From Dehalococcoidia bacterium (GTDB lineage: Bacteria > Chloroflexota > Dehalococcoidia > UBA2979): a DNA stretch of 64,000 nucleotides. The translations under genes and the position numbers were made by a program. Every line of letters starts with the position of its first letter. Position 1 is the stretch's first letter. The DNA lies in the NCBI GenBank assembly GCA_009692685.1, contig SHYS01000001.1, positions 248,001 to 312,000 on the forward strand. Direction: 5' to 3'. The notes below the pieces were generated by a model that saw only the letters and a program-made list of their open reading frames with translations, did no database searches and had not been told where the DNA came from. Positions 2,504 to 51,599 of the stretch are shown piece by piece.

Positions 2504-2535
2504 GGGGGCCATTCGACAGGCTCAGGAGCGCCCCC
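2504..2535. repeat. TTCGACAGGCTCA-type hairpin repeat, single copy
   Basis: Intergenic copy of the dispersed hairpin family: a stem of five G paired with five C around a loop containing TTCGACAGGCTCA. It lies in the 255-base gap between fumC and the small membrane protein. The rest of that gap shows nothing else I can support. Confidence 0.6.
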
Positions 2536-2629
2536 AGGCCCCCGCTGTCACCGAGGACGGCTCGATACCGGCGAAGCCATTGTGCGCGCGGGAGGGGCTG
2601 CACCACTCGCACAGCCGCCTGGCTCGATC

Positions 2630-3001
2630 TCATTGTGCTGCCGCTGATGACGCACGCCAGCCGATGGCGAGAGGCAGCAGGAACGTCAGCGCGTAGTAGA
2701 GGTACACGTCTGCCTTGTAGTAGCCGTCCTCTTGGTTCAGCAACTTCACGATGAACACGTAGTCGAGCGCGATGGCCAGAACCGACCAGGCAACGGCGAG
2801 CTTCAGGTAGCGCTCAAGCGCGCCCCGTTCGACCTTTGTAGTGAGCACCAAGAGTGTGATAACCGCCCCGATCGGCATTACGACCCATCCGATGAGCGAC
2901 GTGGGAAGGACGAAGAAGAGGACCACTCCCCGCAGATAGCCGATCAGCCACAGGCCAACGCCACAGCCGAACTCGTCTCTCAGCAGCCGTGTCTCGCCCA
3001 T
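2630..3001 (-). CDS. Small four-helix membrane protein of unknown function
   Basis: A 123-residue protein starting at ATG 3001. Hydrophobicity suggests four transmembrane helices: roughly residues 16-35 (LWLIGYLRGVVLFFVL), 37-53, 67-85 and 98-115. It ends with a short Ala-rich tail and a TGA stop. It sits between fumC and mdh on the same strand, but nothing in it points to TCA metabolism. I do not recognise a family. Coding is likely because the frame is open and the helices are well formed, but no function should be inferred. Confidence 0.6.
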   Translation of the reverse strand: MGETRLLRDEFGCGVGLWLIGYLRGVVLFFVLPTSLIGWVVMPIGAVITLLVLTTKVERGALERYLKLAVAWSVLAIALDYVFIVKLLNQEDGYYKADVYLYYALTFLLPLAIGWRASSAAAQ

Positions 3002-3058
3002 GCTTTGACGCTGGGCGCGCCCGCGCAGCTACCGCGGGCGCGGGCGCTTCCATTCGAA

Positions 3059-3988
3059 CTACTGCGTGGTGGCTGCGACCAACTCGAGGACGGCGGCGCC
3101 GGCGGCCCGCATGCCGGCCAGCTCGGCGTCCGACAGCGGGATGTCGTGGACGGCCTCGACGCCACGGGCACCGAGGGTGACCGGAGCGCCGACGTAGGCG
3201 TCCTTGATGTCGAACTGGCCCTGGAGCAGCGTGCAGCAGGGCAGGATGCGCTTCTGATCGAGGAGGATGGCGTCCACCATCTCGATGGTGGCGGCGGCGG
3301 GGGCGTTGAAGGCGCTGCCGGTCTTGAGGAGGTCGACGATCTCGGCGCCGCCGCGCTTTGTGCGCTCGACGACGGCTTGGACGCGCTCAGGCGAAAGCAG
3401 CGTGGTGAGCGGGACACCGCCGACCGTGGCGTTGGAGACGATCGGGACCATGGTTGCCTCGGTGTGACCGCCGAGGACCCAAGCGGCGACGTCGCGGACC
3501 GAGGCGCCGGTCTCCATGGAGATGAAGGTGCGGTAGCGGCCGCTGTCGAGCATACCGCCCTGGCCGACGACGCGCTGGACGGGGACGCCGGCGGCAGTGA
3601 GCGCTACGTGGCACATCGCATCCATGGGGTTGGCGAAGATGACGAAGACGGCGTTGGGCGAGGCCTTGACGGCGTTGCCGATGACCGAGCGAACGATGCC
3701 GGCGTTGGTGCCGAGGAGATCCTCGCGGGTCATGCCGGGCTTCCGGGGGACGCCGGAGGTGACGACGACGACATCGGAGTTGGCCGTGTCGGCCCAGTCG
3801 TTGGTGCCGGTGATGTTGGAGGAGAAACCGACCCACGGGGCGCCCTCGGCGATGTCGAGTGCCTTGCCCTGGGGCAGGCCCTCGACGATGTCGCACAGGA
3901 CAACATCTGCATAGCCGCGCGCGGCCATGATCTGGGCCATGGTGCCGCCGGTCATTCCGGCGCCGACAAACGTGACCTTCTTGCGCAC
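3059..3988 (-). CDS. mdh: Malate dehydrogenase (LDH-like, NAD-dependent)
   Basis: Oxidises malate to oxaloacetate in the TCA cycle. The 309-residue protein starts at GTG 3988, preceded by an AAAGGAG ribosome-binding site eight bases upstream; the frame is open further upstream, but that N-terminal stretch is unlike the family. The Rossmann motif GAGMTGGTMAQ lies near residue 8. The substrate-binding arginine loop (GVPRKPGMTRED, near residue 80) and the catalytic histidine region (GGHTEATMVP, near residue 175) are present. The last codon is followed by TAG. Length and motifs match the tetrameric LDH-like malate dehydrogenases common in Chloroflexota and Alphaproteobacteria. No lesion is seen. 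Confidence 0.96.
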   Translation of the reverse strand: MRKKVTFVGAGMTGGTMAQIMAARGYADVVLCDIVEGLPQGKALDIAEGAPWVGFSSNITGTNDWADTANSDVVVVTSGVPRKPGMTREDLLGTNAGIVRSVIGNAVKASPNAVFVIFANPMDAMCHVALTAAGVPVQRVVGQGGMLDSGRYRTFISMETGASVRDVAAWVLGGHTEATMVPIVSNATVGGVPLTTLLSPERVQAVVERTKRGGAEIVDLLKTGSAFNAPAAATIEMVDAILLDQKRILPCCTLLQGQFDIKDAYVGAPVTLGARGVEAVHDIPLSDAELAGMRAAGAAVLELVAATTQ

Positions 3989-4083
3989 GAACCGTACTCC
4001 TTTGTCGCTCGCCCCCCGACTACACGGTTGGGCGACCCTCTTAGTGGTGAACATGAACGGGTACCGCTCAGCGGGCCGCTCCC

Positions 4084-4160
4084 GCTCATGGTGAGCCTAT
4101 CGAACCATGAGCCGATGGCGTGGGTCCCGCGCATCCTTCGACAGGCTCAGGATGCGCGGG
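4084..4160. repeat. Head-to-head pair of TGAGCCTGTCGAA/TTCGACAGGCTCA hairpins
   Basis: Two hairpins stand side by side between icd and mdh. The first (4084-4112) has 9-base arms GCTCATGGT/ACCATGAGC around GAGCCTATCGA. The second (4126-4160) has 11-base arms CCCGCGCATCC/GGATGCGCGGG around TTCGACAGGCTCA. The loop words are reverse complements of each other, while the stems are unrelated in sequence yet each pairs perfectly. The rest of the 276-base gap shows nothing else. Confidence 0.8.
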
Positions 4161-4264
4161 AGAGGCATTGGTCCCGAGATCGGGCCCCGCCTTACTCGGG
4201 TCGGTACCTCACAATCACTGCGCCACTCCTATTTGTGATGGGCACTCGGGCGTCTGCGCCATGC

Positions 4265-5485
4265 CTAGGCCTTAGCCATCGCGGCCTGCACGCCCTCGTC
4301 GAGCTTCTCGAGGAAGCCCATGGTGGTGAGGAACGGGGCGTCCGGGGCGATGAGGATGGCGAGGTCCTTGGTCATCTGGCCGGCCTCGACGGTCTCGACG
4401 CAGACGCGCTCGACGGCGTCGGCGAAGGCCTTGAGATCGCCGTTATTGTCGAGCTTGGCGCGGTGGGCGAGGCCCCGGGTCCAGGCGAAGATCGAGGCGA
4501 TCGGGTTCGTCGAAGTGGCCTCGCCGCGCTGGTGCTGGCGGTAGTGGCGGGTGACGGTGCCGTGGGCGGCCTCGGCCTCGACGGTCTGTCCGTCGGGGGT
4601 GACGAGGACGGAGGTCATGAGTCCGAGGGAGCCAAAGCCCTGCGCGACGATGTCGGACTGGACGTCGCCGTCGTAGTTCTTGCATGCCCAGACGAAGCCG
4701 CCGCTGGACTTGAGGGCCTGGGCGACCTGGTCATCGATGAGGCGGTGCTCGTACCAGATCTTCTTGGCCTCGAAGCCGGCCTTGAACTGCGCGTCGTAGA
4801 CGTCCTGGAAGATCTCCATGAAGCGACCGTCGTACTGCTTGAGGATGGTGTTCTTCGTCGACAGGTAGAGGGGCCAGCCGCGGTCGAGGGCGTAGTTCAT
4901 GCAGGATTGGGCGAAGCCGCGGATCGACTCGTCGACGTTGTACATGCCCATGGCGACGCCGGGCGAATCGAACTTCATCACCTCGTACTCGGTGGGTGTG
5001 CCGCCGCCATCGGGTGTGAAGGTCATGGTGAGGCGGCCGGGGCCGGTGACCTTGAAGTCGGTGGCGCGGTACTGGTCGCCGTAGGCGTGGCGGCCGATGA
5101 CGATGGGCTGGGTCCAGCCGGGGACGAGCCGGGGGACGTTGGAGCAGATGATCGGCTCGCGGAAGACGGTGCCGCCGAGGATGTTGCGGATGGTGCCGTT
5201 GGGTGAGCGCCACATCTGCTTGAGGTTGAACTCGGTGACGCGGGCCTCGTCGGGGGTGATGGTGGCGCACTTCACACCGACGCCGTACTGCTTGATGGCG
5301 TTGGCGCTATCGATGGTGACCTGGTCGTTGGTGGCGTCGCGGTACTCGATGCCGAGGTCGTAGTACTTCAGGTCGATATCGAGGTAGGGGAGGATGAGCT
5401 TCTCTTTGATGAAGCCCCACATGATGCGGGCCATCTCGTCGCCATCGAGCTCGACGACCGGGTTCGCGACTTTGATCTTTGCCAT
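4265..5485 (-). CDS. icd: Isocitrate dehydrogenase (NADP+), eukaryotic-type homodimer
   Basis: Decarboxylates isocitrate to 2-oxoglutarate with NADP+, supplying NADPH. The 406-residue product begins [20 protein letters not shown], the typical start of subfamily II (eukaryotic-like) enzymes rather than the E. coli type. The metal/substrate signature [19 protein letters not shown] is near residue 270, followed by the [10 protein letters not shown] stretch near residue 310. ATG at 5485 is the natural start; the stop is TAG. It lies upstream of mdh on the same strand, separated by the paired hairpin repeats. No lesion is seen. Confidence 0.97.
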
Positions 5486-6004
5486 CGGTACCTCATCGGT
5501 AGGAAGCGTGTAGCCCTCTGGTCCGTCCTCGAACGCGGGAGGTTCGAGGCAGGCGCCGCCCGCTCCACCTCGCGACTGCGCGCGCCGCCTCGAGTATGGT
5601 ATCGAGGGGAAAGACGCACGCCCGTTGGGCTCGAGGGTGAGCGGTGGTTGGCGGCCCTAGGGATTATACGGGGAATCTGAGGGAGGAGCAGGGCGGGCGC
5701 GGGTTAGGATAGAAGCCCCCCCCTCCGCATGCCTCCCCCCAACGCCGCCGAGCTCTGGCCGCCGACCGCCCCCGCTACCGTGGGTTGCGTCTCGCAAATC
5801 CAACCTCAACCTCTGCTGCGGCTGAGGCTCGCGGATGAGCAATCACCGCGGTGGTCGTTGAAGCACGCCCCCCCTCGGCATGTCTCCCCGGGATTCCGGG
5901 CGAGCTAAGCTCGCGCCCGCCAGCGCCGCCACGACCGCGCGCGGGCGTACGGCCTTCGGTAGAGTGCGCGGCGACGAGCAGCGACCTCCCGAGGAGTCAC
6001 ATCG
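5486..6004. other. Divergent intergenic region (519 bases) between icd and an alpha/beta hydrolase
   Basis: I see no convincing gene. Two C-rich stretches resemble each other (about 5718-5745 and 5866-5892: a run of C, then C-T-C, then GCATG, then TCTCCCC or CTCCCCC), forming an imperfect direct repeat. A short hairpin (GGGCGAGC ... GCTCGCGCCC) lies near 5896-5917. Promoters for both flanking genes should be here, but I cannot point to them. Confidence 0.4.
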
Positions 6005-6871
6005 ATGACCGAACCAACGCAGCGCTTCGTGGAGTCGCAGCGGGTCAAGATCTGTTACTGGGACTGGGGCAACGAGCAGGCGGCGCCGCTGGTGCTGGTT
6101 CACGGTGGAGGCGACAACGCGAGGTCGTGGCAGCGTGTCGCGGCCGCTCTTAGCGACACATACCACGTGGTAGCGCCCGACCTCCGAGGGCATGGCGGGT
6201 CCGAGTGGGTCCCCGGTGGTACGTACGGTCTCCCCGATAACGCCCTCGATGTGGTGCGTGTCATCGAGGCCGTCGGGGCGCCGGCGTGGGTGCTGGCGCA
6301 CTCGTACGGGGGGTCGGTGTCGCTGCTCGCGTCCGGCGCCTACCCGGAGATGTTCCGGGGCATGATGGTGCTGGAGGGCACCCACTCGCTGAACCCTCGC
6401 GACGATGAGCCGATGGGCCCGGCGTGGGTACGGCGCTGGGGCGACCGCGTGCGCTCGTTTGAGGGGATGACGCCGCGGGTGTACCCCTCGCTGGACGACG
6501 CGCGCGAGCGGCTGCACGCCGCCAACCCCCGACTGCCCGCGGACTTCCTCCCGGCGATGGCCGAGGACGCCTCGAAGCCGGTCGAGGGCGGGTACGTGTG
6601 GCGGCACGACTACTGGATCAACGGTCGCACCTCGATGGAGGTGCGTCGGGCGGAGCTGCCGAGGTTCTGGGCGAACATCGAATGCCCCGTGTTACTGGTG
6701 TTCGCGGACCGCGACCACACGAACTCTGGCCAAGTGCCGGATGCTGAGAAGCATTTCGCGAAGGCGAAGAGTGTGCGCTCGGTGTTCATCCCGGACTCGG
6801 GGCACTGGATCCACCACGACCAGCTGGAGCGGACGGTGAGCGAGGCGCGCTCGTTCTTCGAGACGGTGTGA
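6005..6871 (+). CDS. Alpha/beta-hydrolase fold protein
   Basis: A 288-residue soluble hydrolase with the complete fold signature. HGGGDNARSW (oxyanion loop) is near residue 34, the nucleophile elbow AHSYGG places Ser at residue 100, an acidic residue lies in FADRDHT near residue 240, and the catalytic His sits in SGHWIHH near residue 265. ATG at 6005 follows GAGGAGTCACATCG, a good ribosome-binding site. The substrate cannot be read from sequence; esters, epoxides or C-C bonds are all possible in this superfamily. It ends with TGA and is followed by degenerate repeat copies. Confidence 0.85.
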   Translation: MTEPTQRFVESQRVKICYWDWGNEQAAPLVLVHGGGDNARSWQRVAAALSDTYHVVAPDLRGHGGSEWVPGGTYGLPDNALDVVRVIEAVGAPAWVLAHSYGGSVSLLASGAYPEMFRGMMVLEGTHSLNPRDDEPMGPAWVRRWGDRVRSFEGMTPRVYPSLDDARERLHAANPRLPADFLPAMAEDASKPVEGGYVWRHDYWINGRTSMEVRRAELPRFWANIECPVLLVFADRDHTNSGQVPDAEKHFAKAKSVRSVFIPDSGHWIHHDQLERTVSEARSFFETV

Positions 6872-6890
6872 CGGGAGCAGCGCTCTCGTC

Positions 6891-6945
6891 CGTTCGTGGT
6901 GAGCCCGGCACGGGGTTATCCGTTCGCCCTGAGCCTGGCGAAGGG
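6891..6945. repeat. Two degenerate hairpin-repeat copies
   Basis: Two weak relatives of the TGAGCCTGTCGAA family (6891-6913, with TGAGCCCGGCACGG, and 6922-6945, with TGAGCCTGGCGAA) lie downstream of the hydrolase. Only the second keeps a pairable stem (TTCGCCC ... GGCGAAG-like). They appear to be eroded copies. Confidence 0.4.
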
Positions 6946-7003
6946 GCAACGGGGACCGCGTCAGGTGCGAATCCTGGAGACCCGGAGAGTGAAGCGGTGA
7001 GCA

Positions 7004-7297
7004 ATGCCGTTCTTCGTTTACCTGCTCCGCTGCGCCGACGGCTCGTACTACGCGGGACACACGGAGAACCTAGAATCCCGGCTCGCGAGCCACCAGGGAG
7101 GCCTCGTCCCGGGATGCACGCGGCCGCGCCGGCCTGTGTCTCTGGTCTGGGTCGAAGAGACCTCGTCCCGGGCGGACGCGCTCCAGGTGGAACGGCAGAT
7201 CAAAGGTTGGTCGCGGGTGAAGAAGGAACTGCTGATCGACTGTGGGTGGGAAGCGCTCCGAGGATCGTCACGCGGGGGCTCGCCATGCGTGTCGTAG
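7004..7297 (+). CDS. GIY-YIG nuclease-superfamily protein
   Basis: A 97-residue protein made almost entirely of one GIY-YIG domain. VYLLRCADGSYYAGHT (residues 5-20) supplies the two tyrosine-containing strands, R26 follows in NLESRLASHQ, and the E of EERQIKGW-type helix (VERQIKGWSRVKK, near residue 62) completes the metal site. Stand-alone YhbQ/UPF0213-like proteins have this length and layout and are thought to act on DNA, though their physiological role is unclear. ATG at 7004; stop TAG. The neighbouring downstream gene is a broken antitoxin and is not obviously related. Confidence 0.85.
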   Translation: MPFFVYLLRCADGSYYAGHTENLESRLASHQGGLVPGCTRPRRPVSLVWVEETSSRADALQVERQIKGWSRVKKELLIDCGWEALRGSSRGGSPCVS

Positions 7298-7382
7298 GCC
7301 TGGAGTGCTCGATTCGCGCCAGTCGACGACGACGGTGCGGTTCGCCAGGCTCACCACGCACTGATAACGGCGCTCGATTACC

Positions 7383-7684
7383 ATGGCTGATGTGAAGAGC
7401 GCATCGGTTCGCGCAATACGCTGGCCGCCCGTGGCCATGCATCCCGGCGAGCTGCTCGGTGAGGAGCTCGAGGCGCGCGACATGACGCAGAGTGAGATTG
7501 CCCGGGCGATGGGCCGGTCTCCGGGGCAGTAAGCGAGCTGGTCCGCCAGCGAACGCTGGTCACAGTCGATACCGCATTGGACCTCGAAGGGGCGATGGGG
7601 ATCTAGGCGGAGCTCTTGTTGAACCTGCAATCGCGCTTTGACCTCGTGGAGGGGCGCAAACGGCGCGAGACGAAGGCCAGCTAA
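7383..7684 (+). pseudogene. HigA-family antitoxin (XRE HTH), frameshift plus in-frame TAG
   Basis: The N-terminal part from ATG 7383 (HPGELLGEELEARDMTQSEI) is the classic start of HigA antitoxins, and the helix-turn-helix continues to GRSPG. The frame then ends at TAA 7530. One frame over, the family sequence resumes as VSELVRQRTLVTVDTALDLE, reaches TAG at 7604-7606, and continues in frame as AELLLNLQSRFDLVEGRKRR to TAA 7682. Intact relatives read ...GISAEFWLNLQ... here, so the TAG replaces one residue. Two separate lesions make a functional product very unlikely. No intact HigB toxin is visible upstream (7298-7382). Confidence 0.8.
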
Positions 7685-7711
7685 GACCTTGCGTCGTGCC
7701 ACCATCGCAGC

Positions 7712-8056
7712 ATGACCACGCCTCGGATCCGGCATGGGCGACTCGATGACGGTGTGCCCGCGGTGTTGCCTCAGGAGCTGGTAAGCGTGCTGGCCGATGG
7801 CGGCGGCGTGCGCATCGAGCGGATCGTGTCACGCGGACAGGCCTCGGCAGAGGGTTCGTGGTACGACCAGGTCGAGGATGAGTTCGTGCTCCTAGTGAAC
7901 GGGTCGGCGCGACTGGAGTTCGAGGAGTTCGACCTCGAGCTGACGGCGGGCGACTGGGTGGAGCTGCCGGCGGGCGTGCGCCATCGGGTGGCGTGGACGG
8001 ACGAGGGAGCAGACACGATCTGGCTGGCGGTGTATCGTCCCGCCTCGACGGGGTGA
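7712..8056 (+). CDS. Cupin-domain protein
   Basis: A 114-residue single-domain cupin. The second half shows the second cupin motif as LTAGDWVELPAGVRHRVAWT (near residues 76-96), with the PxGxxH core in PAGVRH; the first motif is degenerate (WYDQVEDEFVLLVNGSARLEF), containing E-x5-G but not the usual His pair. Small cupins of this kind bind a metal or small ligand; several are annotated as phosphoribosylaminomidazole-succinocarboxamide-like or sugar-binding with little evidence. Function unassigned. ATG 7712, stop TGA. Confidence 0.75.
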   Translation: MTTPRIRHGRLDDGVPAVLPQELVSVLADGGGVRIERIVSRGQASAEGSWYDQVEDEFVLLVNGSARLEFEEFDLELTAGDWVELPAGVRHRVAWTDEGADTIWLAVYRPASTG

Positions 8057-8136
8057 GTGCCCCACCTGGAGTGGATTACGCGTACAATTCAGGCGCAATT
8101 TCGACCGCCTGAGTGGGCGACGGAGAGGGGATACCG

Positions 8137-9387
8137 ATGGACTGGGCAGACAACGCAGAGCAGGCGGCCTTCAGGGCCGAAGTCAAGAGTGTGCTGGTGT
8201 CCGGGCTTCCGGACATCTACAAGCGCCTCGCCAGTGGCGAGGGCAGCGCAGAAGAGGGCCAGGCGGGCGACTGGGTCGCCGACCGCAAGGCCGATGACCC
8301 CGAGCGGGTGAAGGCTGCGAAGGACTGGGGCGACGCACTGGCTGCTCGCGGCTGGTTCGCGCCACAGTGGCCGAAGGAGTACGGCGGCGGGGGCCTCTCG
8401 CCGATGGAGCAGTTCATCTTCCGCCAGGAGACGGCGCTGGCCGGTGCACCGGCGGTTGGTGGTTCCGGGGTGAGCCTGCTGGGTCCAACGCTGATCGTGC
8501 ACGCCTCGGAAGAGCAGAAGAAGAAGTACCTGCCGGACATCCTGTCGGGCAAGACGGTGTACGCGCAGGGGTACTCGGAGCCGGGATCCGGCTCGGACCT
8601 CGCCTCGCTGCAGACGCGTGCGGTGCGGGACGGCGACGAGTACGTGCTCAACGGGCAGAAGATCTGGACCTCGGGCGCGCACCACGCGGATGCGATGTTC
8701 GCGCTGACGCGCACCGACCCGGACGCGCCGAAGCACCGTGGCATCACCTTCCTGGTGATCGACAGCATCAAGACGCCGGGCCTGACGATCCGCCCGCTGA
8801 TCAACATGGCGTGGAAGCACGGCTTCAACGAGACGTTCTTCGAGGACGTGCGTGTGCCGGTCGCGAACGTCATCGGCGAGGAGAACCGCGGCTGGTACGT
8901 CGGCGCGACGCTCCTCGACTTCGAGCGCTCGAACATCTCTGGCGCCGTGGCGCAGAAGCGCACCATCAACGGCCTGCTGTCGTACACGAAGACGGACGAT
9001 GGCAAGGCGAAGTCCAAGCTCAGCGGCCGTGGTGGGGAATCGACGGCGGTGCGGTCGGATGTCGCGGACCGGTACATCGAGACTGCAGTGGGCGAGAACT
9101 TCTCGTTCCGCATCATCTCGATGCAGAACCGCGGCCTGATCCCAAACTACGAGGCCTCGACGGCCAAGATGTTCATCTCGGAGTCTGGTCAGCGCCTGCA
9201 GCGCACGGGGACCAAGGTGTTCGGGCTGTACTCGAACATCTGGGAGCCCTCGGACCCGCGTGCGGCGGCGAAGGCGAGCTTCACGCAGGGCTACGTGACG
9301 AGCGTGCCAGCGACGATCGCGGCCGGGTCTTCCGAGATCCAGCGCAACATTATCGCGACTCGTGGCCTAGGCCTGCCTCGCGGCTAG
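8137..9387 (+). CDS. Acyl-CoA dehydrogenase
   Basis: FAD-dependent alpha,beta-desaturase of an acyl-CoA thioester, soluble, passing electrons to electron-transfer flavoprotein. I place the start at ATG 8137 (MDWADNAEQAAFRAEVKSV), which has GGAGAGGGG just upstream; the frame is open a further 24 bases. The 416-residue product has the family order: alpha-helical N-domain, FAD-binding beta-domain with YSEPGSGSDLASL (near residue 147) and QKIWTSGAHHADAMF (near residue 177), the FEDVRVPVANVIGEENRGW segment (near residue 240), and the C-terminal helical domain ending GLGLPRG. That ending is typical of FadE-type dehydrogenases. Substrate chain length is unknown. A rho-independent terminator follows. 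Confidence 0.93.
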   Translation: MDWADNAEQAAFRAEVKSVLVSGLPDIYKRLASGEGSAEEGQAGDWVADRKADDPERVKAAKDWGDALAARGWFAPQWPKEYGGGGLSPMEQFIFRQETALAGAPAVGGSGVSLLGPTLIVHASEEQKKKYLPDILSGKTVYAQGYSEPGSGSDLASLQTRAVRDGDEYVLNGQKIWTSGAHHADAMFALTRTDPDAPKHRGITFLVIDSIKTPGLTIRPLINMAWKHGFNETFFEDVRVPVANVIGEENRGWYVGATLLDFERSNISGAVAQKRTINGLLSYTKTDDGKAKSKLSGRGGESTAVRSDVADRYIETAVGENFSFRIISMQNRGLIPNYEASTAKMFISESGQRLQRTGTKVFGLYSNIWEPSDPRAAAKASFTQGYVTSVPATIAAGSSEIQRNIIATRGLGLPRG

Positions 9388-25549: not shown

Positions 25550-25560
25550 GGTCACTCTCC

Positions 25561-25649
25561 GCTCACGGTGAGCCTGTCGAACCATGAGCGCGATCGAGCG
25601 CACTAGATCGTGGCCCTGCTCGCACTGCGACAGGCTCAGTGTGAGCAGG
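25561..25649. repeat. Head-to-head pair of hairpin repeats after hyuB
   Basis: 25561-25589 has arms GCTCACGGT/ACCATGAGC (one wobble) around GAGCCTGTCGA. 25616-25649 has arms CCTGCTCGCACTG/CAGTGTGAGCAGG around CGACAGGCT. Beyond the second copy, TGAGC words recur to about 25700 without a clear stem. Confidence 0.75.
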
Positions 25650-34393: not shown

Positions 34394-34517
34394 CGTTTGT
34401 GGTGAGCCTGTCGAACCACAACGCCGACCTCGATGCGCGCGGCGCCCATCCGGAGCGTTAGTCCGGATCATCGAGGTACCCACGCCCTTCGACAGGCCCT
34501 TCGGCAAGCTCAGGGGG
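34394..34517. repeat. Head-to-head pair of hairpin repeats
   Basis: 34394-34423 has arms CGTTTGTGGT/ACCACAACG around GAGCCTGTCGA. The second, 34485-34517, is CCC...TTCGACAGGCCCTTCGGCAAGCTCAGGGGG, a copy with an eight-base insertion in the loop. Both lie in the 274-base gap between the CoA-transferase genes and the CapA-like gene; nothing else is seen there. Confidence 0.75.
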
Positions 34518-43732: not shown

Positions 43733-43738
43733 CGCTCG

Positions 43739-44872: not shown

Positions 44873-46092
44873 ATGGCGGCCACGTCTGCGCTCGACCAAT
44901 TCGGGGACGCATCGCGCACGCAGGCTGCGCTCTCCGCGCTCCTTGTCATCAGTGACCCCGAGATTCTCGAGTCGCTGCGCCGGTCTTTCCGCTCCACGGG
45001 TTTTTGGTGGTTGGCGAGGCATGGCCGGGCATCGATGCGGTCCGGCGCGCGGATGCGCTAAAGCCCGACGTGGTGGTGCTCCACATCGAGGAGCCGATCG
45101 TGCCAGCGCTGCGCACGGCACAAGCCCTAGCGGACTCCTGCGACGCGGGGCTCGCGGTGATTTCGAGCGCGGACGACCTGGACACGATGCGCCGCGTCAT
45201 GAATGCGGGAGCGCACGACTTCGCGACACTGCCGCTTTCGGATGCCGAGCTTCGCGACGCTGCACGTCGAGCAGCCTCGACGGCCGGGCGACGGGCGTCG
45301 GCAGGTTAGACGGAGAAGAAGAGCGCGACCACCGGCCGCGTGGTGACCGTGGCGGGTGCTCGCGGCGGTGTCGGGAAGAGCACGATTGCGGCGAACCTGG
45401 CCATCGAGATCGCGCGCACGACGCGCGCAGCGGTGAATGTCGCCGACCTGGACCTGCTGTTCGGTAGCGTGGCGATGATGCTGGATACGCTGTCTGAGAT
45501 CGGATTGCAGGAGTGGAAGCGCGATCGAGTGCGCCACAGCTCCACGGCGGTGTCGCCGTACCTGACGGAGACGAAGTCGGGGGTGCGCCTGCTGGCGGCA
45601 CCGACCGACCCAGACGCTTCGCTGGAGCTGTCTGCGAGCGATGTATCCGACCTGATCTCGGACCTGAGCAGCACGTACGACTACGTGGTGGTGGACACGG
45701 CGCTCGGATACACCGAGGTGACCGCCGCAGCGCTGGAGCGTGCGACGCTGCCGTTGCTGGTGACGACGCCGGAGATCAGCTCGCTGCGGGCGACTCGGTT
45801 CGTGGTCAACGACTTGCGCAGCCGCGGCGCCACGAGCGAGCGTCTTGCGGTAGTGGTGAATTATTCGAGGGCGTTCGTGGGCTCGAAGGAACTGGCGGAG
45901 ACGCCGGGTGCTTCGGTGAGCTGGGAGATCCGGCACGACGTGCAGGTGCTGCGCGCTGCGAAGGCGGGGGTGCCTGTCAGCACGGAGAAGGCCGGCGCGC
46001 TGATACCTCGAGTGCTTCACGAGATCGCCGCCGAGGTGTCGGGCGTGGTCGCGAGCCAGGGGTCGCGACGCTGGCTACTCAGAGCCGGCTAA
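44873..46092 (+). pseudogene. CpaE/TadZ-like protein (receiver-like domain plus MinD/ParA ATPase), frameshift and in-frame TAG
   Basis: ATG 44873 starts MAATSALDQFGDASRTQAAL. A receiver-like domain begins LSALLVISDPEILESLRRSFRSTGF; a one-base slip in the TTTTT run near 45000 shifts frame to VVGEAWPGIDAVRRADALKP, which continues to TAG 45307-45309. The same frame then carries TEKKSATTGRVVTVAGARGGVGKSTIA, the deviant Walker A of MinD/ParA-type ATPases, and DYVVVDTALGYTEVTAAALE, to TAA 46092. CpaE proteins place type IV/Flp pili. The receiver part is a pseudo-receiver, as usual for CpaE. The ATPase half alone has an upstream stop, so both lesions need repair. No other pilus genes are visible nearby. 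Confidence 0.72.
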
Positions 46093-46273
46093 CCCGGGAA
46101 ACCATCGCAGCTGCGCTCGACAGGGCGCGGCTGCCCGCGCCGCTCTCGTGACACTTCCCTCTGGGCACTGTGTCCGGCGCCATCCGATCCGCGAGTATTG
46201 ACACCACAGGCGAGCCACGCAGTGGCGCAGTCACGGCGACGCGTGCCGTGCCGAACTGGGCTGGAGCGTGAGG
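46093..46273. other. Short intergenic gap with no recognised feature
   Basis: 181 bases between the CpaE-like gene and the CAP/SCP gene (convergent ends). I find no hairpin or gene that I can support. Confidence 0.4.
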
Positions 46274-47119
46274 TCAGTTGCGGAAGAGCTGCGTCACCAT
46301 GACGTGCGTCGCGTCCTTGCGGACGATGCCGATGCCGATGCCGATGCCGATGCCGATGCGGGCCAGCTTCGGGTTTAACAGGTTCGCCCGGTGGCTGGGG
46401 GAGTTCATTAGCGCCTCATGGGCGAGGGTGGTGTCGCCAGCCCAGGCGATGTTCTCGGCGGCGCTGGTGTAGGTGATGCCCGCGGCCGCCATGCGGGCGA
46501 ACGGGTCGAGTCCTTCTGGGTTGATGTGCGAGAAGTAGCCCCGAGCCACCATGTCGGCGGAGTTACGCCGTGCCACCTCGATGAGTGCCGGGTCGAGCGT
46601 GAAGACCGGGAGGCCGTTGGCGACGCGGGCCTGATTCACTAGGGCGAGCATCTGCGCTTCGGACTGTTCGAGGGCGGCGACGCCCGATGGAGGCGGCAGC
46701 GGCGGGGGCGTGGATGTGGGAGCGGGCGTCGCTGCGGACGAAACAGCGGTGGTTGATGAGCAGACGAGGATGATCGGGCTCTGCGCGGGCAGGTTGCTGC
46801 CGGCGAACATCGTGCGGAAGCTCAGGTTCACAGCGTCCGGCGCGCCGTAGAGGTAGCCGATGAGTTCGTCGCCGCCTGAGCGGTTGGTCCAGAGCGAGCG
46901 TGGGCTACACGACGTACTGGCGAGGGCGGCACGCACGTCCTCGGTGGAGCCACCGCTCCAGAGCAGGACACCCATGGCACCGGGACCGGGGACCGCGCCG
47001 ACGAACTGTCCGGCGTGGGCGCTCGAGGCGCCGAGTGACATCGAGGCGCCAACGAGGAGGGCGAGGAGCAGGCGACGTGCTGTCGCCCCCGGCATAGAGG
47101 CCCTGGCGCGATCGGACAT
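46274..47119 (-). CDS. Exported CAP/SCP (CAP-superfamily) protein
   Basis: A 281-residue protein. I take ATG 47119, which precedes a clear signal peptide (RRLLLALLVGASMSLGASSAHAG). A first domain of about 90 residues contains SGGDELIGYLYGAPDAVNLS and a Ser/Thr/Pro-rich linker. The CAP domain follows (EQSEAQMLALVNQARVANGLP near residue 150, ARRNSADMVARGYFSHINPEG near 180, and NSPSHRANLLNPKLARIGIG near 245). CAP proteins are secreted, with roles from wall binding to peptidase-like activity. A (GI)n expansion near the end comes from a six-base repeat. Confidence 0.88.
   Translation of the reverse strand: MSDRARASMPGATARRLLLALLVGASMSLGASSAHAGQFVGAVPGPGAMGVLLWSGGSTEDVRAALASTSCSPRSLWTNRSGGDELIGYLYGAPDAVNLSFRTMFAGSNLPAQSPIILVCSSTTAVSSAATPAPTSTPPPLPPPSGVAALEQSEAQMLALVNQARVANGLPVFTLDPALIEVARRNSADMVARGYFSHINPEGLDPFARMAAAGITYTSAAENIAWAGDTTLAHEALMNSPSHRANLLNPKLARIGIGIGIGIGIVRKDATHVMVTQLFRN
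46322..46357. repeat. Six-base microsatellite (GATGCC) within the CAP/SCP gene
   Basis: About six tandem copies of GATGCC (plus strand), read on the minus strand as repeating Gly-Ile in the last beta-strand of the CAP domain, where relatives usually have only one or two Gly-Ile pairs. In-frame six-base units let the strand length change without frameshift. Confidence 0.85.
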
Positions 47120-47283
47120 GCGGCCATTATCGGCGTTCGTCCTCACATAACCCAGTCGTAAACCCCCTAGGCCAGGATAAGAAGTCGCCATGCTGGAGCG
47201 GGCGCGAGCGACGATATTCCGGCACCAGCTGATGGTGAGAGGCGGTACCGTTCGAGGTCGGCGGCAGGTCAGAGGGGTGGGCC

Positions 47284-49167
47284 ATGCTACTCGAAAGGGC
47301 GCGCGCAATTGGATGGCGTGACACACGCGCGATCCGTCGGAACGTGATGCGGGGCATTGCGGCTGTGTTCGTGCTGACGGCGTGTCTGCCCTCGATGGTG
47401 GCGGGTCAGACGCCGCAGCGCGAGCAGATCACCGCGTACAACATCGACGTCGCGGTGGAGCAGACAGGCTCACTCCTGATCACGGAGACGATCGCGTACT
47501 TCTTCGACGCGGAGCGCCACGGGATCCTGCGTGATATCACCGTGCGGCTGCGTTACGACGACAGGTACGACCGCGCCTATCCCCTCGATGTCGTGAGCGT
47601 GGACTCGAAAGACGGCGCTCCCGACGAGTACACCGTCGAAGACATCGGTGGTGGGATGACGCGCATCCGGATCGGCGACCCGAAGAAGACGATCCAGGGA
47701 GCGCACACCTACGCCATCAGCTATCGAGTGCGCGGCGCGCTGAACGCGTTCCCGGACCACGATGAGTTGTACTGGAACGTGGTGGGGAACGCCTGGCCGG
47801 TGCCGATCGGTCTGGTTACCGCGCGAGTCGGCCCGAACGCAGACGGTCAGCGTGCTGGTACTCCCGGCTGGTGGTCGGCACCGCTCGAGGTGGCGTGCTT
47901 CGCCGGGCCGCTGGGATCGCAGCGCACGTGTCGAACCGCCTCGATCGACGGAGGGCAGGCTCGTTTTGCGCACCCCGCGTTGCAGCCGTACGAGGGACTG
48001 ACAGTGGTGGTCTCGCTTGCGAAGGGCGTGGTGCCTGCGCCGAGCCCGATCCTAGAGGAGCGCTGGAGTTTCGGACGCGCGTTCGCGGTCACACCGCTCA
48101 CCGTTGGGATGGCAGCCCTCGTGCTGGCCGGGGTGGTGTACGGGCTGGTGCGTGTCTACTGGACGACCGGTCGCGACCTGCGCTGGGCGGGGTCGCCCAT
48201 CGATGCGGTGTTCGGGAAGGCGGGTGCGCCTGAGACCACCGTGGCGTGGGGCGACAACGGGCCGTATCCGGCGGAGTACATCCCGCCCGAGGGGATGCGC
48301 CCCGGCCTGATGGGCACGCTGGTCGACGAGACCGCACATCCCCTCGACGTGACGGTGACGATCATCGACCTCGCGTCGCGGGGCTACCTGCGCATCGAGG
48401 AGATCCTGAAGGAGGGCTGGTTCGGCAAGCCCGATTGGAAGCTGGTGCAGTTGAAGGAAGGCGGTGACCTCCTCGAGTACGAGCAGCTGCTCCTCGATAG
48501 CGGCCTGTTCGAGGACGGGCCGGAGGCCTTGCTGTCGGACCTGAAGGACCGTTTCGCGGGACGAATGCACACGGTCCAGGAGGTGCTGTACGACGAGGCG
48601 GTTGCCCGGGGCTGGTTCACTTCGAGTCCGCAGTCGCAACGGACCCGCTGGATGTTGTTCGGGATGCTCATCCTCGTCGCAGCCGTCGTCGTTGAGGTGG
48701 CGACCGCCGCCTTCACGCACTTCGGCATCGTGCCGCTGCCGCTCGTGCTCGGCGGAATCGTGCTGCTGGTGATGAACAAGTCGCTTCCGAGGCGCACGGC
48801 CGCGGGGACTGCCGCGCTGCGTCACGTCTTGGGGTTCCGGCGATTCATCGACGACGTGGAGGACGAGCGATCGCGCTTCGCGGAGCAGGCGCACCTGTTC
48901 TACGACTACCTGGCGTTCGCCATCGTGTTCGGGCTGACGGCGAAGTGGGCGAAGGCCTTCGCAGGGTTGGCGAACGCGCCGCCGCCACCCAGCTGGTACG
49001 TCTCGTCGAGCGCCTTCTCGGTAATGGCATTCTCGAACTCGATGGACAACTTTGGGGTGACTGCGACGGGCACGATCGCGAGCACGCCGAGTGGGTCGGG
49101 CGGCAGCGGGTTTAGCGGTGGCTCCTCGGGTGGAGGTGGCGGCGGTGGCGGCGGGGGCAGCTGGTAG
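47284..49167 (+). CDS. DUF2207-family membrane protein
   Basis: A 627-residue membrane protein. ATG 47284 follows AGAGGGG; ATG 47347 is a second possibility. N-terminal signal (GIAAVFVLTACLPSMVAG) leads to an extracytoplasmic beta-rich domain (ITAYNIDVAVEQTGSLLITETIAYFFD and HGILRDITVRLRY), then a transmembrane helix near residue 280 (VTPLTVGMAALVLAGVVYGL), a cytoplasmic domain, two further helices near residues 460-500 (LFGMLILVAAVVVEVATAAF) and a Gly/Ser-rich tail ending GGGGGGGGSW. This layout matches DUF2207 proteins, predicted membrane proteins of unknown function. Complete. Confidence 0.9.
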   Translation: MLLERARAIGWRDTRAIRRNVMRGIAAVFVLTACLPSMVAGQTPQREQITAYNIDVAVEQTGSLLITETIAYFFDAERHGILRDITVRLRYDDRYDRAYPLDVVSVDSKDGAPDEYTVEDIGGGMTRIRIGDPKKTIQGAHTYAISYRVRGALNAFPDHDELYWNVVGNAWPVPIGLVTARVGPNADGQRAGTPGWWSAPLEVACFAGPLGSQRTCRTASIDGGQARFAHPALQPYEGLTVVVSLAKGVVPAPSPILEERWSFGRAFAVTPLTVGMAALVLAGVVYGLVRVYWTTGRDLRWAGSPIDAVFGKAGAPETTVAWGDNGPYPAEYIPPEGMRPGLMGTLVDETAHPLDVTVTIIDLASRGYLRIEEILKEGWFGKPDWKLVQLKEGGDLLEYEQLLLDSGLFEDGPEALLSDLKDRFAGRMHTVQEVLYDEAVARGWFTSSPQSQRTRWMLFGMLILVAAVVVEVATAAFTHFGIVPLPLVLGGIVLLVMNKSLPRRTAAGTAALRHVLGFRRFIDDVEDERSRFAEQAHLFYDYLAFAIVFGLTAKWAKAFAGLANAPPPPSWYVSSSAFSVMAFSNSMDNFGVTATGTIASTPSGSGGSGFSGGSSGGGGGGGGGGSW

Positions 49168-49258
49168 CCGCACCCGCGACTGACATCGAGGGCGCACGGC
49201 GCGCCAACGGGGGCTATCCTGACGCGCGACCTTCGGAAGCGTGCGGAAGGGGGCCTCG

Positions 49259-50008
49259 ATGTACCCATACGAGGGCATGCTGGCGGAGACGGTCCTGTTC
49301 CAGGGCCACAACGGTGACTGGGTGAGCGGCTACGCGGCGCGACCACTGGGCGCGGGTCCGCGCCCGGGCGTAATCGTGATCCACCACATGCCCGGCTGGG
49401 ACGAGTGGAGCAGGGAAGTCGTCCGCAAGTTCGCTGCGCACGGCTACGACTCCGTGGGGCCGAACCTGTTCCATCGATTCGGCGAGGGCTCACCGGACGA
49501 CGTGGCGGCGGTGGCCCGGTCGCAGGGTGGCGCCTCGGACGCGCAGGTGATGGGGGACGCCGAGGGCGCGGCCGCTTACCTGCGAGCGCTGCCGTCCTCG
49601 AATGGCAATGTGGGGATCATCGGATTCTGCTCGGGCGGGCGTCAGGTCTACCTCGCGGCGTGCTCGATCCCGTCGTTGAACGCGGCGGTCGACTGCTGGG
49701 GTGGTGGCGTGATCGCGACGCCGGAGCAGCTGAACGAGAAGCGGCCGGTGGCGCCCATCGATCTGACGAAAGACATGCAAGTGCCGCTGCTGGGGATCTT
49801 CGGGAACGAGGACCGCAGCCCGACGCCAGAGCAGGTGGACCAGACCGAGGCGGAGCTGCAGAAGCTCGGCAAGGTCTACGAGTTCCATCGATATGACGGT
49901 GCGGGCCACGGCTTCTTCGCGACCGACCGTGCGGGCTACCGACCGGAGCAGGCCGTTGATGCCTGGGGCAAGGTGTTTGCGTGGTACAAGAAATGGCTGA
50001 GTGCCTAG
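49259..50008 (+). CDS. Dienelactone hydrolase family protein
   Basis: A 249-residue alpha/beta hydrolase with a Cys nucleophile: GFCSGGRQVYLAA (near residue 121), HHMPGWDEWSREVVRKFAAHGYD near 43, an Asp in GNEDRSPTPEQ near 183 and a His in YDGAGHGFF near 213. This is the DLH pattern of carboxymethylenebutenolidases, which open lactones in aromatic degradation, though relatives act on other esters. ATG 49259 is preceded by GGAAGGGGG. Full length. The following small gene is unrelated but on the same strand. Confidence 0.93.
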   Translation: MYPYEGMLAETVLFQGHNGDWVSGYAARPLGAGPRPGVIVIHHMPGWDEWSREVVRKFAAHGYDSVGPNLFHRFGEGSPDDVAAVARSQGGASDAQVMGDAEGAAAYLRALPSSNGNVGIIGFCSGGRQVYLAACSIPSLNAAVDCWGGGVIATPEQLNEKRPVAPIDLTKDMQVPLLGIFGNEDRSPTPEQVDQTEAELQKLGKVYEFHRYDGAGHGFFATDRAGYRPEQAVDAWGKVFAWYKKWLSA

Positions 50009-50055
50009 CGCGCCTTGACATCGAGTACCAGAGCGACGTCGAGGGGAGTACGCAG

Positions 50056-50355
50056 ATGTGCACGTGGATCATCGAGAAGGCCGAGCTGAGCGGGAGCGCT
50101 AAGGGCGCCGAGGGCTGGTTCGACGTCCGACAGGCGAACGTGTACTACGACCACCCGTTCCACGCGCAGTTCGACCACGCGCTGATCATCGACTTCGTGC
50201 AGGACCCGGACACGCCCGGCCATCGGGTGGCCGTGGAGCTGACGGCGGATTCCGCGCGGCGGCTGATGGAGTCGATCCGCTTGGCCATCGCGACGGGCGT
50301 GGACGCGCACGCCGAGGATTTACAGGCGGCGCCGGCCCTTGCGCACGCGCACTGA
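50056..50355 (+). CDS. Small conserved protein of the DUF6295 type
   Basis: A 99-residue protein from ATG 50056 with GAGGGGAG upstream. It begins MCTWIIEKAELSGSAKGAEG and continues FDVRQANVYYDHPFHAQFDHALIIDFV, a pattern I associate with small DUF6295-like proteins widespread in Actinobacteria and Chloroflexota. Conserved aromatic and histidine residues hint at metal or ligand binding, but the function is unknown. Ends TGA. Confidence 0.75.
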   Translation: MCTWIIEKAELSGSAKGAEGWFDVRQANVYYDHPFHAQFDHALIIDFVQDPDTPGHRVAVELTADSARRLMESIRLAIATGVDAHAEDLQAAPALAHAH

Positions 50356-50387
50356 GGGCACGCCTCTGCCTCGGAGGCCGGTATTCC

Positions 50388-50464
50388 CCGCTCGTCCTGA
50401 GTGTGTCGAAGGGCGAGCAGGACTGACGCCGTCGGCTCATGGTTCGACATGCTCACCATGAGCG
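50388..50464. repeat. Head-to-head pair of hairpin repeats
   Basis: 50388-50421 has arms CCGCTCGTCCT... paired imperfectly with ...GGGCGAGCAGG around GAGTGTGTCGA. 50434-50464 has arms GGCTCATGGT/ACCATGAGCG around TCGACATGCTC. Loops carry one or two changes from the consensus. Confidence 0.7.
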
Positions 50465-50543
50465 GGGGAGTGCACTCACCATGAGCGGGGGAGTGAACTC
50501 ACCACGAGCGCGGAAGTGAACTCTCGATGACTCGGTGAGGAAA
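50452..50543. repeat. 23-base tandem repeat, four units
   Basis: Units 50452-50474, 50475-50497, 50498-50520 and a degenerate 50521-50543 share CTCACCATGAGCGGGGGAGTG. The array starts in the right stem of the preceding hairpin repeat, suggesting expansion of that arm, and ends 16 bases before the GTG start of the next gene. Confidence 0.85.
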
Positions 50544-50559
50544 CCCATCTGGGCGGGAA

Positions 50560-51192
50560 GTGGGCGTGGGCGACATCGAGCTGCTGTTCGACGGACCCGA
50601 GGACGCGCGCGACGTGCTCGTGCTGGCACACGGGGCGGGCGCGGGTATGCGGCACCCGTGGATGACCTCGATGGCGGGACGACTGGGCGATGCCGGGCTG
50701 CGGATAGCACGCTTCGAGTTCCCGTACATGGCTCGCAGGATCGAGGGCAGTCGAGCCGGGCTGCCCGACACTGAGCGCGTGTTGCGCGCGACCTGGATCA
50801 AGGTTGTTGAACGCCTCGGAGGTGGGGGCGCAGTGGTCGTCGGTGGGAAGTCGATGGGTGGACGCACCGCCAGCATGATCGCGGACGATGTGGGATCGCG
50901 GGGGCTGGTCTGCCTCGGGTACCCGTTTCACCCGACGGGGCGGCCGGAGCGCCTGAGGACGGCGCACCTCGATGGGTTGCGCACGCCGGCGCTGTTCGTG
51001 CAGGGCACGCGCGATATCAAGGGGAGCCGGGAAGAAGTCGCAGGGTACGCGCTGTCGCACTCGATCCGCGTGCACTGGCTCGAGGATGGCGACCACTCGT
51101 TCGCGCCTCGCAAAGCGTCAGGGCACACCGCCGTGGGGCACCTCGATGCCGCGGCCGCGGCGGTGGTTGAGTTCGTGCGGGGTCTGCGGTGA
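50560..51192 (+). CDS. Alpha/beta hydrolase (KANL3/Tex30-like, dienelactone-hydrolase-like)
   Basis: A 210-residue protein, GTG 50560. It has the family's VLAHGAGAGMRHPWMTSMAGRL (residues 21-42), the nucleophile elbow GGKSMGGRTASMIA (near residue 98), QGTRDIKGSREEV (near residue 149) and DGDHSFAPRK (near residue 178). The layout matches the short KANL3/TEX30-type alpha/beta hydrolases of unknown substrate. It ends overlapping the following gene by four bases (TGA within GTGA), so the two are translationally coupled. Confidence 0.85.
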   Translation: MGVGDIELLFDGPEDARDVLVLAHGAGAGMRHPWMTSMAGRLGDAGLRIARFEFPYMARRIEGSRAGLPDTERVLRATWIKVVERLGGGGAVVVGGKSMGGRTASMIADDVGSRGLVCLGYPFHPTGRPERLRTAHLDGLRTPALFVQGTRDIKGSREEVAGYALSHSIRVHWLEDGDHSFAPRKASGHTAVGHLDAAAAAVVEFVRGLR

Positions 51193-51512
51193 CTGCCGGA
51201 GATCGAGGCGCAGCGCCAACGCTCCGCTACGACTCGGACTGCCGGTTCTGCACGGCGAGCGCGCGCTGGATCGAGGGGCGCTCGGGCGCGCGCGTGCGCC
51301 TCGAAGCTGCACCAGGAATCGGTGCGGCGGAATTCGCGGCCGGTGGGGCAGTGCGTCGAGGCGGCGCGGCGGCTACCGCGGCGTACGCATTAGCGACGGG
51401 ACAGCGCTGGGTGCGCGCCCTCGATGCGCCGGTGGTGTCGCTGCTGCGGGACGCGGCCTACGCTGTCATTGCACGTTCGAGGTGGGCGCTAGGACGACTG
51501 GGGAGGCGCTAG
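51189..51512 (+). CDS. DUF393 (DCC family) thiol-disulfide oxidoreductase-like protein
   Basis: A 107-residue protein starting at GTG 51189, overlapping the preceding stop. YDSDCRFCTASARWIE holds the DxxCxxC motif of the DCC family, predicted thioredoxin-like proteins, followed by the variable middle and the typical AYALATGQRWVRALDAPVV. Predicted redox-active; role unknown. Short but within range for the family. Confidence 0.82.
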   Translation: MTAGDRGAAPTLRYDSDCRFCTASARWIEGRSGARVRLEAAPGIGAAEFAAGGAVRRGGAAATAAYALATGQRWVRALDAPVVSLLRDAAYAVIARSRWALGRLGRR

Positions 51513-51521
51513 GGCGCGTCC

Positions 51522-51599
51522 CCGCTCATGGTGAGCCTGTCGAACCCCTCAGCCAGCGCCACGACTACCGGCTCGTCCTTCGACAGGCTCAAGACGAGC
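51522..51599. repeat. Head-to-head pair of hairpin repeats
   Basis: 51522-51547 has CCGCTCATGGTGAGCCTGTCGAACCC, whose right arm has partly decayed. 51571-51599 has arms GCTCGTC-CTT/AAGACGAGC around TCGACAGGCTC. They fill the gap between the DUF393 gene and the convergent VOC gene. Confidence 0.75.

Follow-up and report, generated by a model that had tools for sequence, protein, structure and literature searches.

REPs are common repeats of bacterial genomes, and a large, GTAG-tagged part of them has a known enzyme. REPs with a RAYT/TnpA-REP partner (REPtrons, REPINs) are short extragenic palindromes of high copy number that occur in inverted pairs and clusters, are commoner between convergent genes, and flank the gene of their partner. 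IS200/IS605 elements have hairpin ends round a small nuclease gene, read by structure and not by sequence alone. CGTC-tagged REPs, which include Neisseria dRS3, have 8-9-bp stems mostly starting with AT, 4-5-nt loops and often a CCA tail (PMC3733652). In 2013 they were stated to be without a dedicated transposase (Di Nocera, PMC3733652).

How does a hairpin family found in 64,000 nucleotides of DNA (the window) from an uncultured bacterium of the class Dehalococcoidia, phylum Chloroflexota, compare with these systems? It shares with REP/RAYT systems all the features named above, and differs from them in having no GTAG/GTGG tag, a TGAG...CGAA hairpin tip, stems whose sequence is not conserved across lineages, and a proposed GIY-YIG nuclease partner in place of an HUH Y1 enzyme. 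The likeness to IS200/IS605 lies in the hairpins round a small nuclease gene and in the putative reading of structure, but there is no Y1 enzyme and most hairpins enclose no gene. Like the CGTC REPs, the elements are extragenic palindromes in inverted pairs with no known transposase, and both kinds flank GIY-YIG genes of one superfamily on either side (in six genera for the CGTC REPs). The window hairpins differ from them in their free stems and 13-nt module.

The loop word TCGACAGGCTC, with at most one mismatch, occurs 17 times in the window against 2.5 expected, and none of 100 shuffles reached 17. Four of the 17 matches (1001, 43635, 60256 and 62860) lie inside predicted genes and form no hairpin. 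The hairpin copies number 13, at 9 places, with a near-constant 13-nt loop (Table 1), and all 13 are intergenic by heuristic gene calls. This confirms the original prediction of a constant-loop family with at least twelve intergenic copies at eight loci. Its five head-to-head pairs have the orientation it described; four are tight (at 4.1, 25.6, 34.4 and 51.5 kb), and the fifth (6930-/7341+) is looser, spanning 411 bp with a gene inside. At least three base pairs lie flush with the loop in 8 of 13 copies, and in copies 25569 and 51579 pairing resumes past one mismatch or interruption. Most window copies thus pair, but "always self-complementary" was slightly too strong, as copies 2512, 7341 and 51532 pair poorly beside the loop. 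In the host's nearest relative (G001) and in RBC038, the gap orthologous to 4125..4161 holds no hairpin.

Table 1. Hairpin copies and the GIY-YIG gene in the window, with the position of each loop word
Coordinates	Strand	Loop word	Feature	Remark
2498..2539	+	2512	Hairpin copy, 13-nt word within GC-rich hairpin	Empty form GGGGGC-TGC-GCCCCC occurs in G001
4084..4112	-	4092	Hairpin, 8-bp stem GCTCATGG/CCATGAGC, loop variant TTCGATAGGCTCA; left half of pair	
4125..4161	+	4137	Hairpin, 12-bp stem; right half of pair	
6926..6946	-	6930	Hairpin upstream of GIY-YIG gene; canonical G001-type stem and tail (CCGTTCG)	Aligns with G001 copy
7004..7297	+		97-aa stand-alone GIY-YIG nuclease (SLX1/UPF0213-like), proposed hairpin partner	PF01541 E 1e-16
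7338..7356	+	7341	Degenerate hairpin downstream of GIY-YIG gene; two pairs flush with loop	
9511..9539	+	9519	Hairpin, 8-bp stem GCTCATGG/CCATGAGC	
25560..25590	-	25569	Hairpin, one stem mismatch; left half of pair	
25615..25649	+	25626	Hairpin, 11-bp stem with one mismatch, loop variant TGCGACAGGCTCA; right half of pair	
34397..34421	-	34403	Hairpin, 6-bp stem; left half of pair	
34488..34515	+	34488-34500	Nested degenerate copies TTCGACAGGCCC and TTCGGCAAGCTCA; right half of pair	
50435..50463	+	50443	Hairpin, 8-bp stem, then 23-bp tandem array of its own 3' arm	
51530..51546	-	51532	Hairpin, weak stem (two pairs); left half of pair	
51571..51599	+	51579	Hairpin, first pair mismatched, then seven pairs; right half of pair	

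G001 carries 105 exact copies (control, 0), some in clusters. Among 97 of these 105, the copies that lie in the stretches retrieved, stem positions 1-3 pair in 97-99%, versus 53-58% after exchange of arms from one copy to another. Viral-collection contigs of mixed origin gave z values of 12-15 at the same positions (249 copies), with position 1 biased in that most of the 249 were retrieved with G..C or C..G there. Pairing is therefore conserved above the arm-swapped expectation, as had been predicted. Stems vary freely across lineages: the 144 copies that pair at positions 1-3 show 23 different triplets. Within the close relative G001, however, a small number of stem types prevail.

The "constant" loop is better described as a module, TGAG...CGAA (complement TTCG...CTCA), since some relatives have a longer inner segment replacing the apex. 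A loop-blind scan returned a loop length of 13 in 192 of 280 cases; in these 13-nt loops variation is strong at position 9, weaker at position 7 and slight at position 6. The tail CGAACGG (complement CCGTTCG) is conserved at 98-100% per position in the 97 G001 copies, and in window copies it is often GAGCGG. Some stems run on into the tail. Energy-based folding did not show the proposed inner pairs of the module; short-stem copies gave z values of -0.4 to -1.0, hardly better than shuffled sequences, and the window type gave -4.1 and -4.3. An Rfam search returned nothing at gathering scores, and the phage collection gave weak Caulobacter phage matches alone.

Could the hairpins form in place with no dedicated enzyme, through insertion of the loop into hairpins already present or through template switching that makes palindromes perfect? 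Copy 2512 looks like an insertion of about 18 nt into the loop of a GC hairpin whose G001 counterpart is empty, and the stems that extend into the tail fit such an origin too. However, 2512 is the one clear case, and we rejected insertion into pre-existing loops as a general rule; the conserved CGAACGG tail and the GIY-YIG link described below are also left unexplained. We regard in-place origin as extremely improbable.

An RNA-level element (terminator, attenuator or mRNA stabiliser), with hairpins selected at 3' ends, is very improbable. Copies are enriched between convergent genes (58 in 16.3 kb) and depleted between divergent ones (10 in 15.3 kb). In co-directional gaps, however, 40 copies lie on the same strand and 44 on the opposite one, though the two strands differ in structure. 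Because there is no strand preference, the terminator or attenuator role suggested earlier is unlikely to be the main one. The intrinsic terminator pattern, a transcript-oriented GC hairpin with a T run, was not found, the tail being GAACGG or GAGCGG. Nor would an RNA role explain the conserved tail, the module or the flanking of GIY-YIG genes.

The original likening to REP/BIME elements is supported by the many extragenic palindromic copies, inverted pairs and clusters. Are these then ordinary RAYT-driven elements whose transposase was lost or not assembled? Their architecture, pairs, clusters and 3'-end location match REPs, and there is a weak positive trend between Y1_Tnp and copy number (Mann-Whitney p 0.013). 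Against this, none of the 30 Y1_Tnp loci examined in class genomes carries the word or the module, and 14 of 24 Y1 loci with enough flank have palindromes of their own on both sides. Of the 17 class genomes that hold 30 copies or more, 12 gave no Y1_Tnp match, and no GTAG/GTGG tag stands out 5' of the stem in the window and G001 copies listed. RAYT genes flanked by TTCGACARGCTCA hairpins were absent among the loci examined, and none of five RAYT loci in the viral collection has the hairpin word. We consider a lost RAYT improbable and rejected RAYT/IS200 as partner in the class. The elements may still be substrates of some mobilising enzyme, as had been suggested. No link was found for IS91 (PF04986 in 1 of 119 genomes), IS110 or reverse transcriptases.

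The original prediction saw no REP-associated transposase in the window. A likely partner is nevertheless there, in the GIY-YIG gene whose hairpin words lie 62 bp upstream and 44 bp downstream. Judged by its sequence, its product is a member of the GIY-YIG superfamily, SLX1-like branch, with the conserved Arg and Glu present: E63 is invariant and R26 nearly so in 11 aligned GIY-YIG proteins including this one. It resembles SLX1-like stand-alone GIY-YIG proteins in profile and length (E 5.5e-23 and 2e-17; UPF0213; PDB 1zg2, 1ywl), and NCBIfam returned no family. In a test for palindromes shared by both sides, the window locus alone scored 13 against 16 and did not pass.

The association of hairpins with GIY-YIG genes is strong. 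Strict hairpins number 57 in the 36.4 kb within 260 bp of GIY-YIG domains versus 7 in 183.8 kb farther out at the same loci, counts that include some nested hairpins and that are not independent within a locus. Among close homologues, 11 of 16 are strictly flanked, as are 4 of 14 distant homologues, 7 of 26 loci from the phylum, 1 of 8 from plasmids and 0 of 5 from the viral collection; the Y1 control loci gave 0 of 30. In a tree of 71 domains, 25 of 37 genes are flanked in three groups, chosen after the tree was seen, versus 1 of 34 elsewhere; the flanked groups stand apart from most other sampled GIY-YIG genes. Flanking changes 11 times on the tree, versus a mean of 21.6 and a minimum of 15 in 200 shuffles.

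Presence across genomes points the same way. Three copies or more are present in 16 of 16 class genomes that encode a close homologue (cut-off E below 1e-15, fixed once the matches were known) versus 30 of 103 others (Fisher 3.7e-8), the genomes being mostly MAGs of unknown completeness. The same comparison gave 0.098 for Y1_Tnp, 0.42 for IS110 and 1 for RVT_1. One genome (G116) has three copies in total, and two of them flank its own GIY-YIG gene.

Other observations count against a partnership. A close homologue is absent from 30 of the 46 class genomes with at least three copies. Genomes with 637 (G208) and 153 copies (G192) gave no GIY-YIG match, large genomes being scored on their first 23 candidates, and no homologue was found in relatives G003 and G004 (18 and 25 copies), nor any GIY-YIG gene on 299 word-bearing viral-collection contigs. 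Conversely, three phylum genomes (G284, G261 and G164) have fair GIY-YIG matches (E 3e-27 to 5e-25) and zero copies of the loop word. Hairpin-less genes exist within the flanked groups (e.g., L585, L573 and L570), with 8 of 33 records represented by the Rhizobium tumorigenes type (L573).

A homing-type or passenger role for the GIY-YIG gene, which would settle between existing repeats while something else spreads the hairpins, is one potential explanation. The many high-copy genomes without the gene fit this, and REPs are known IS targets (PMC1525189). However, GIY-YIG groups tend to carry distinct hairpin types (YTG loops, GnAG loops, long inner segments) with one common module, and in the class sample close homologues are confined to hairpin-bearing genomes (16 of 16). 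The passenger reading is weakened because a mere target need not track the enzyme group, and we consider it possible but doubtful.

Related genes also lie between CGTC-tagged REPs. Seven of eight named plasmid-collection genes from the second-group query pass the both-sides palindrome test (MDH control, 0 of 57), and the Spirosoma locus of that collection has GTCATCC palindromes by eye. CGTC-tagged REPs lie on either side of the gene in 5 of the 8 (Neorhizobium, Rhizobium, Novosphingobium, Azospirillum and Sphingobium) and likewise in Neisseria, making six proteobacterial genera. In Azospirillum lipoferum, a REP pair-nuclease-REP pair cassette sits between sufB and sufC; four relatives lack it and have a gap of about 55-130 bp there. 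The elements beside these genes have all or most CGTC REP hallmarks (tag, AT stem start, 4-5-nt loop, CCA tail), none of which was found in the window copies listed.

On the basis of the repeat family, covariation, module conservation, GIY-YIG flanking, genome co-occurrence and cassette presence or absence observed here, we favor the view that the hairpins are probably non-autonomous REP-like elements partnered by the small stand-alone SLX1-type GIY-YIG nuclease encoded between copies. The TGAG...CGAA module would form a structured tip on a stem whose sequence is immaterial if paired. Once the element is single-stranded or extruded, the nuclease may recognise the folded hairpin and cut at or beside it; repair or copying would then spread single hairpins, pairs and sometimes a hairpin-nuclease-hairpin cassette. 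Binding, cutting, and cutting as the driver of spread are what we infer. The proposed unit is analogous to the RAYT REPtron, but its nuclease fold is unrelated. GIY-YIG enzymes cut DNA by hydrolysis and are not known to rejoin strands in the manner of HUH transposases; copying must therefore rely on host functions.

A full-text literature search gave no match for the 13-nt loop words or for peptide forms of the repeats. For the 11-nt words, the matches listed include no repeat paper by title, and one is a primer. No published link between GIY-YIG nucleases and REPs was among the matches listed, in a search without preprints and the majority of subscription journals. In the bacterial REP papers among those matches, the term GIY-YIG occurs zero times.

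There is about an even chance that the picture is wider, a RAYT-independent REP world in which GIY-YIG nucleases are dedicated partners of a superfamily joining TGAG/CGAA hairpins and CGTC-tagged REPs, including Neisseria dRS3. Inverted hairpins with a nuclease would make up a minimal autonomous mobile element roughly half a kilobase long, with the dispersed hairpins as its non-autonomous offspring; the hairpins would be recognised by structure, and the stem would therefore be free to vary. If confirmed, these findings suggest what spreads a common class of bacterial repeats. A GIY-YIG nuclease between repeats would fill the missing-transposase gap left for CGTC REPs in 2013, would account for stem variation with hairpin persistence, and would bring a further nuclease fold into the set of enzymes believed to spread repeats. 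It would also provide small "GIY-YIG nuclease family proteins" with a testable substrate.

We found 17 occurrences of the loop word (a near-constant 13-nt hairpin loop) in the window, a roughly 7-fold excess over the 2.5 expected. The hairpins number 13 copies at nine sites, every one intergenic; the family described in the original prediction is real and REP-like. Judged by the window's malate dehydrogenase, the closest genomes were the uncultured Dehalococcoidia (Chloroflexota) SJ354 and RBC038. SJ354 carried 105 exact copies of TTCGACARGCTCA, and the reversed control had none. Across a sample of 119 Dehalococcoidia genomes, at least one copy of the word was present in 70, at least 10 in 32, and at least 30 in 17.

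The stem in SJ354, based on 97 of its 105 exact copies, is 4 bp long. Stem positions 1 to 3 were paired in 97 to 99% of copies versus 53 to 58% when the arms were swapped, showing that the stems covary, as had been proposed. Position 4 was G-C in every case, and the tail CGAACGG followed the stem at 98 to 100% per position. A loop-blind search requiring only the tail and a 4-bp partner (445 tails, 280 partners) returned a loop length of 13 in 192/280 cases; among these 192 loops, position 9 of TGAGCCTGTCGAA was highly variable, position 7 less so, and position 6 slightly. This pattern fits a structured tip that would comprise a T-A pair, two sheared G-A pairs (TGAG against CGAA), a G-C pair, a closing pair, and one base left unpaired. 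The sheared G-A motif is stable in DNA; energy folding does not model the proposed inner pairs. In some systems, according to passages of PMC8266576, TnpA-REP can rely on the loop or bulge more than on the sequence of the stem, which provides a precedent for recognition by structure. Self-complementary stems also occurred on the sister loops TGAGCGnAGTCGAA (22 copies, viral-collection contigs), and at several loci a longer inner segment replaced the apex with TGAG and CGAA retained. An 8-bp stem, GCTCATGG/CCATGAGC, is common to the window copies 4092, 9519, and 50443 and partly present in two more; it was absent among the SJ354 copies listed.

Genomic context was counted for 207 copies in SJ354 stretches and the window with heuristic gene calls. 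Convergent gaps held 58 copies in 16.3 kb, co-directional gaps 84 in 40.9 kb, and divergent gaps 10 in 15.3 kb, with no strand preference between co-directional genes (40/44). Another 50 copies fell within gene calls, some of them probably spurious calls running through repeats, and 5 lay at stretch ends. In-frame repeats yield peptides such as PFVVSLSNHT, LRQAQGER, and VILSEAKNL at several loci (L267, L271, L564, and others), lengthening predicted reading frames, and may mislead annotation. Positions 1 to 39 kb of the window are syntenic with SJ354, and several hairpin pairs present in one are missing from the other. Among 18 SJ354 clusters with both flanks located in the fetched part of RBC038, 11 corresponded to an RBC038 gap of <140 bp.

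Features of the window and of the closest relative
Feature	Position	Remarks
GIY-YIG protein gene, 97 aa	7004-7297	Hairpin words 62 bp upstream and 44 bp downstream
Tandem array	50452-50520	Three 23-bp units from the hairpin 3' arm (CTCACCATGAGCGGGGGAGTGCA); local, adjoining copy 50443
Conserved segment, ~400 bp	51683-52088	82-85% conserved in SJ354 (two places, contigs C32 and C7) and RBC038; close to the tRNA-Thr call; no Rfam match at gathering scores
tRNA-Thr(cgt) call, 93 nt	52341-52433	
Long reverse-transcriptase ORF, 758 aa	G001:C13:3266-3697	Hairpin-rich contig of SJ354 (G001)

Which protein, then, accompanies these hairpins? A RAYT/IS200-like transposase had been suggested. Y1_Tnp was present in 35/119 class genomes and showed a weak positive trend with word copy number (P = 0.013). 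Neither the word (sought as far as 1.5 kb to either side) nor the TGAG...CGAA module (sought near the gene) occurred at any of the 30 Y1 loci examined, and RAYT was rejected as the partner in this class. Many Y1 loci have palindromes of their own; those at the Dehalococcoidia genes L227, L237, L230, and L228 are different, e.g., GGACAGACC-TTCA-GGTCTGTCC. In PMC6006769, REPs are reported to accompany certain Y1 subclasses but neither 2.1 nor 2.3. IS91, IS110, and reverse transcriptase families did not track the hairpins either.

The window's GIY-YIG protein matched 56 of the same 119 genomes, 16 of them strongly (E < 1e-15, a cut chosen after seeing the list). All 16 strong-match genomes had at least three word copies, compared to 30/103 others. 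Strict flanking was observed at 11/16 strong, 4/14 weaker, 7/26 phylum, and 1/8 plasmid GIY-YIG loci, and at 0/5 viral-collection loci and 0/30 Y1 controls. Hairpin density was 1.57 per kb within 260 bp of the GIY-YIG domain versus 0.038 per kb farther out at the same loci. By a looser count, hairpins flanked 26/71 genes, including 16 with hairpins on either side; all but one of the 26 fell into three tree groups (37 rows) that tend to differ in hairpin type; the tree rests on only 90 columns, leaves many forks unresolved, and samples the best matches of profile searches rather than random genes.

Several observations, the weak Y1_Tnp trend among them, stand against this partnership. Of the 46 class genomes in which the word occurs three or more times, 30 had no strong homologue. 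Among the candidates scored, no GIY-YIG match was found in G208 (637 copies), G192 (153), G133 (77), or G258 (53), nor in G003, G004, and G010, and a search of 299 viral-collection contigs bearing the word turned up no such gene. Three phylum genomes (G284, G261, and G164) had fair matches yet zero copies of the window word. Because many copy-bearing genomes have no match, the nuclease is unnecessary for copy persistence.

Beyond Chloroflexota, a close GIY-YIG gene of Sphingomonas parapaucimobilis had GnAGT hairpins on both sides, and two Methylobacterium genes had TGAGG...CCTCGAA hairpins on both sides; five other plasmid loci (L570 to L574) had no flanking hairpins. A second-group query gave eight genes absent from the tree (Planktothrix, Neorhizobium, Rhizobium CIAT894, Spirosoma, Sinorhizobium, Novosphingobium, Azospirillum, and Sphingobium). 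A palindromic repeat was common to both sides in 7/8 of these genes, which were hand-chosen from a listing of 30 of the 33 records; the Rhizobium tumorigenes type from the same list (seen as L573) was unflanked. In the controls, shared palindromes occurred at 0/57 malate dehydrogenase loci (of 80 fetched), at 4/35 other GIY-YIG loci (by eye, some via tRNA-like repeats), and at 14/24 Y1 loci, with their own REPs. A CGTC-stem-loop-stem form lay on both sides of 5/8 of the genes found with this query, as it did at a Neisseria gonorrhoeae GIY-YIG gene within a dRS3-like array. CGTC REPs, in the passages of Di Nocera et al. concerned (PMC3733652), have a CGTC tag, 8- to 9-bp stems nearly always starting AT, loops of 4 to 5, and a CCA tail, apparently without a dedicated transposase. 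The elements of Neorhizobium, Rhizobium, Azospirillum, and Neisseria match this description closely, whereas those of Novosphingobium and Sphingobium differ in stem start and tail. In Azospirillum lipoferum AZO_p3, a REP pair-GIY-YIG-REP pair segment, its REPs of the CGTC type, lies inside the suf operon, in the sufB/sufC interval, which is a short gap in 4/4 relatives compared (A. ramasamyi, A. oryzae, B510, and A. thermophilum); exact cassette junctions are unreadable because the gap has diverged. On a Planktothrix agardhii plasmid (L612), the repeat-flanked GIY-YIG gene has an MmeI-type enzyme on one side and the DISARM helicase gene drmA on the other.

Prokaryotic stand-alone GIY-YIG proteins are classed with SLX1 in PMC1564403, in passages that leave palindromic DNA repeats unmentioned. 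We regard the association between GIY-YIG genes and hairpins as very probably genuine, and mobilization of the hairpins by the nuclease as somewhat favored. What we propose is a partnership and a probable origin of the hairpins, not an obligate presence of the nuclease. The window hairpins are REP-like and are best explained as a branch of a repeat superfamily associated with GIY-YIG genes.
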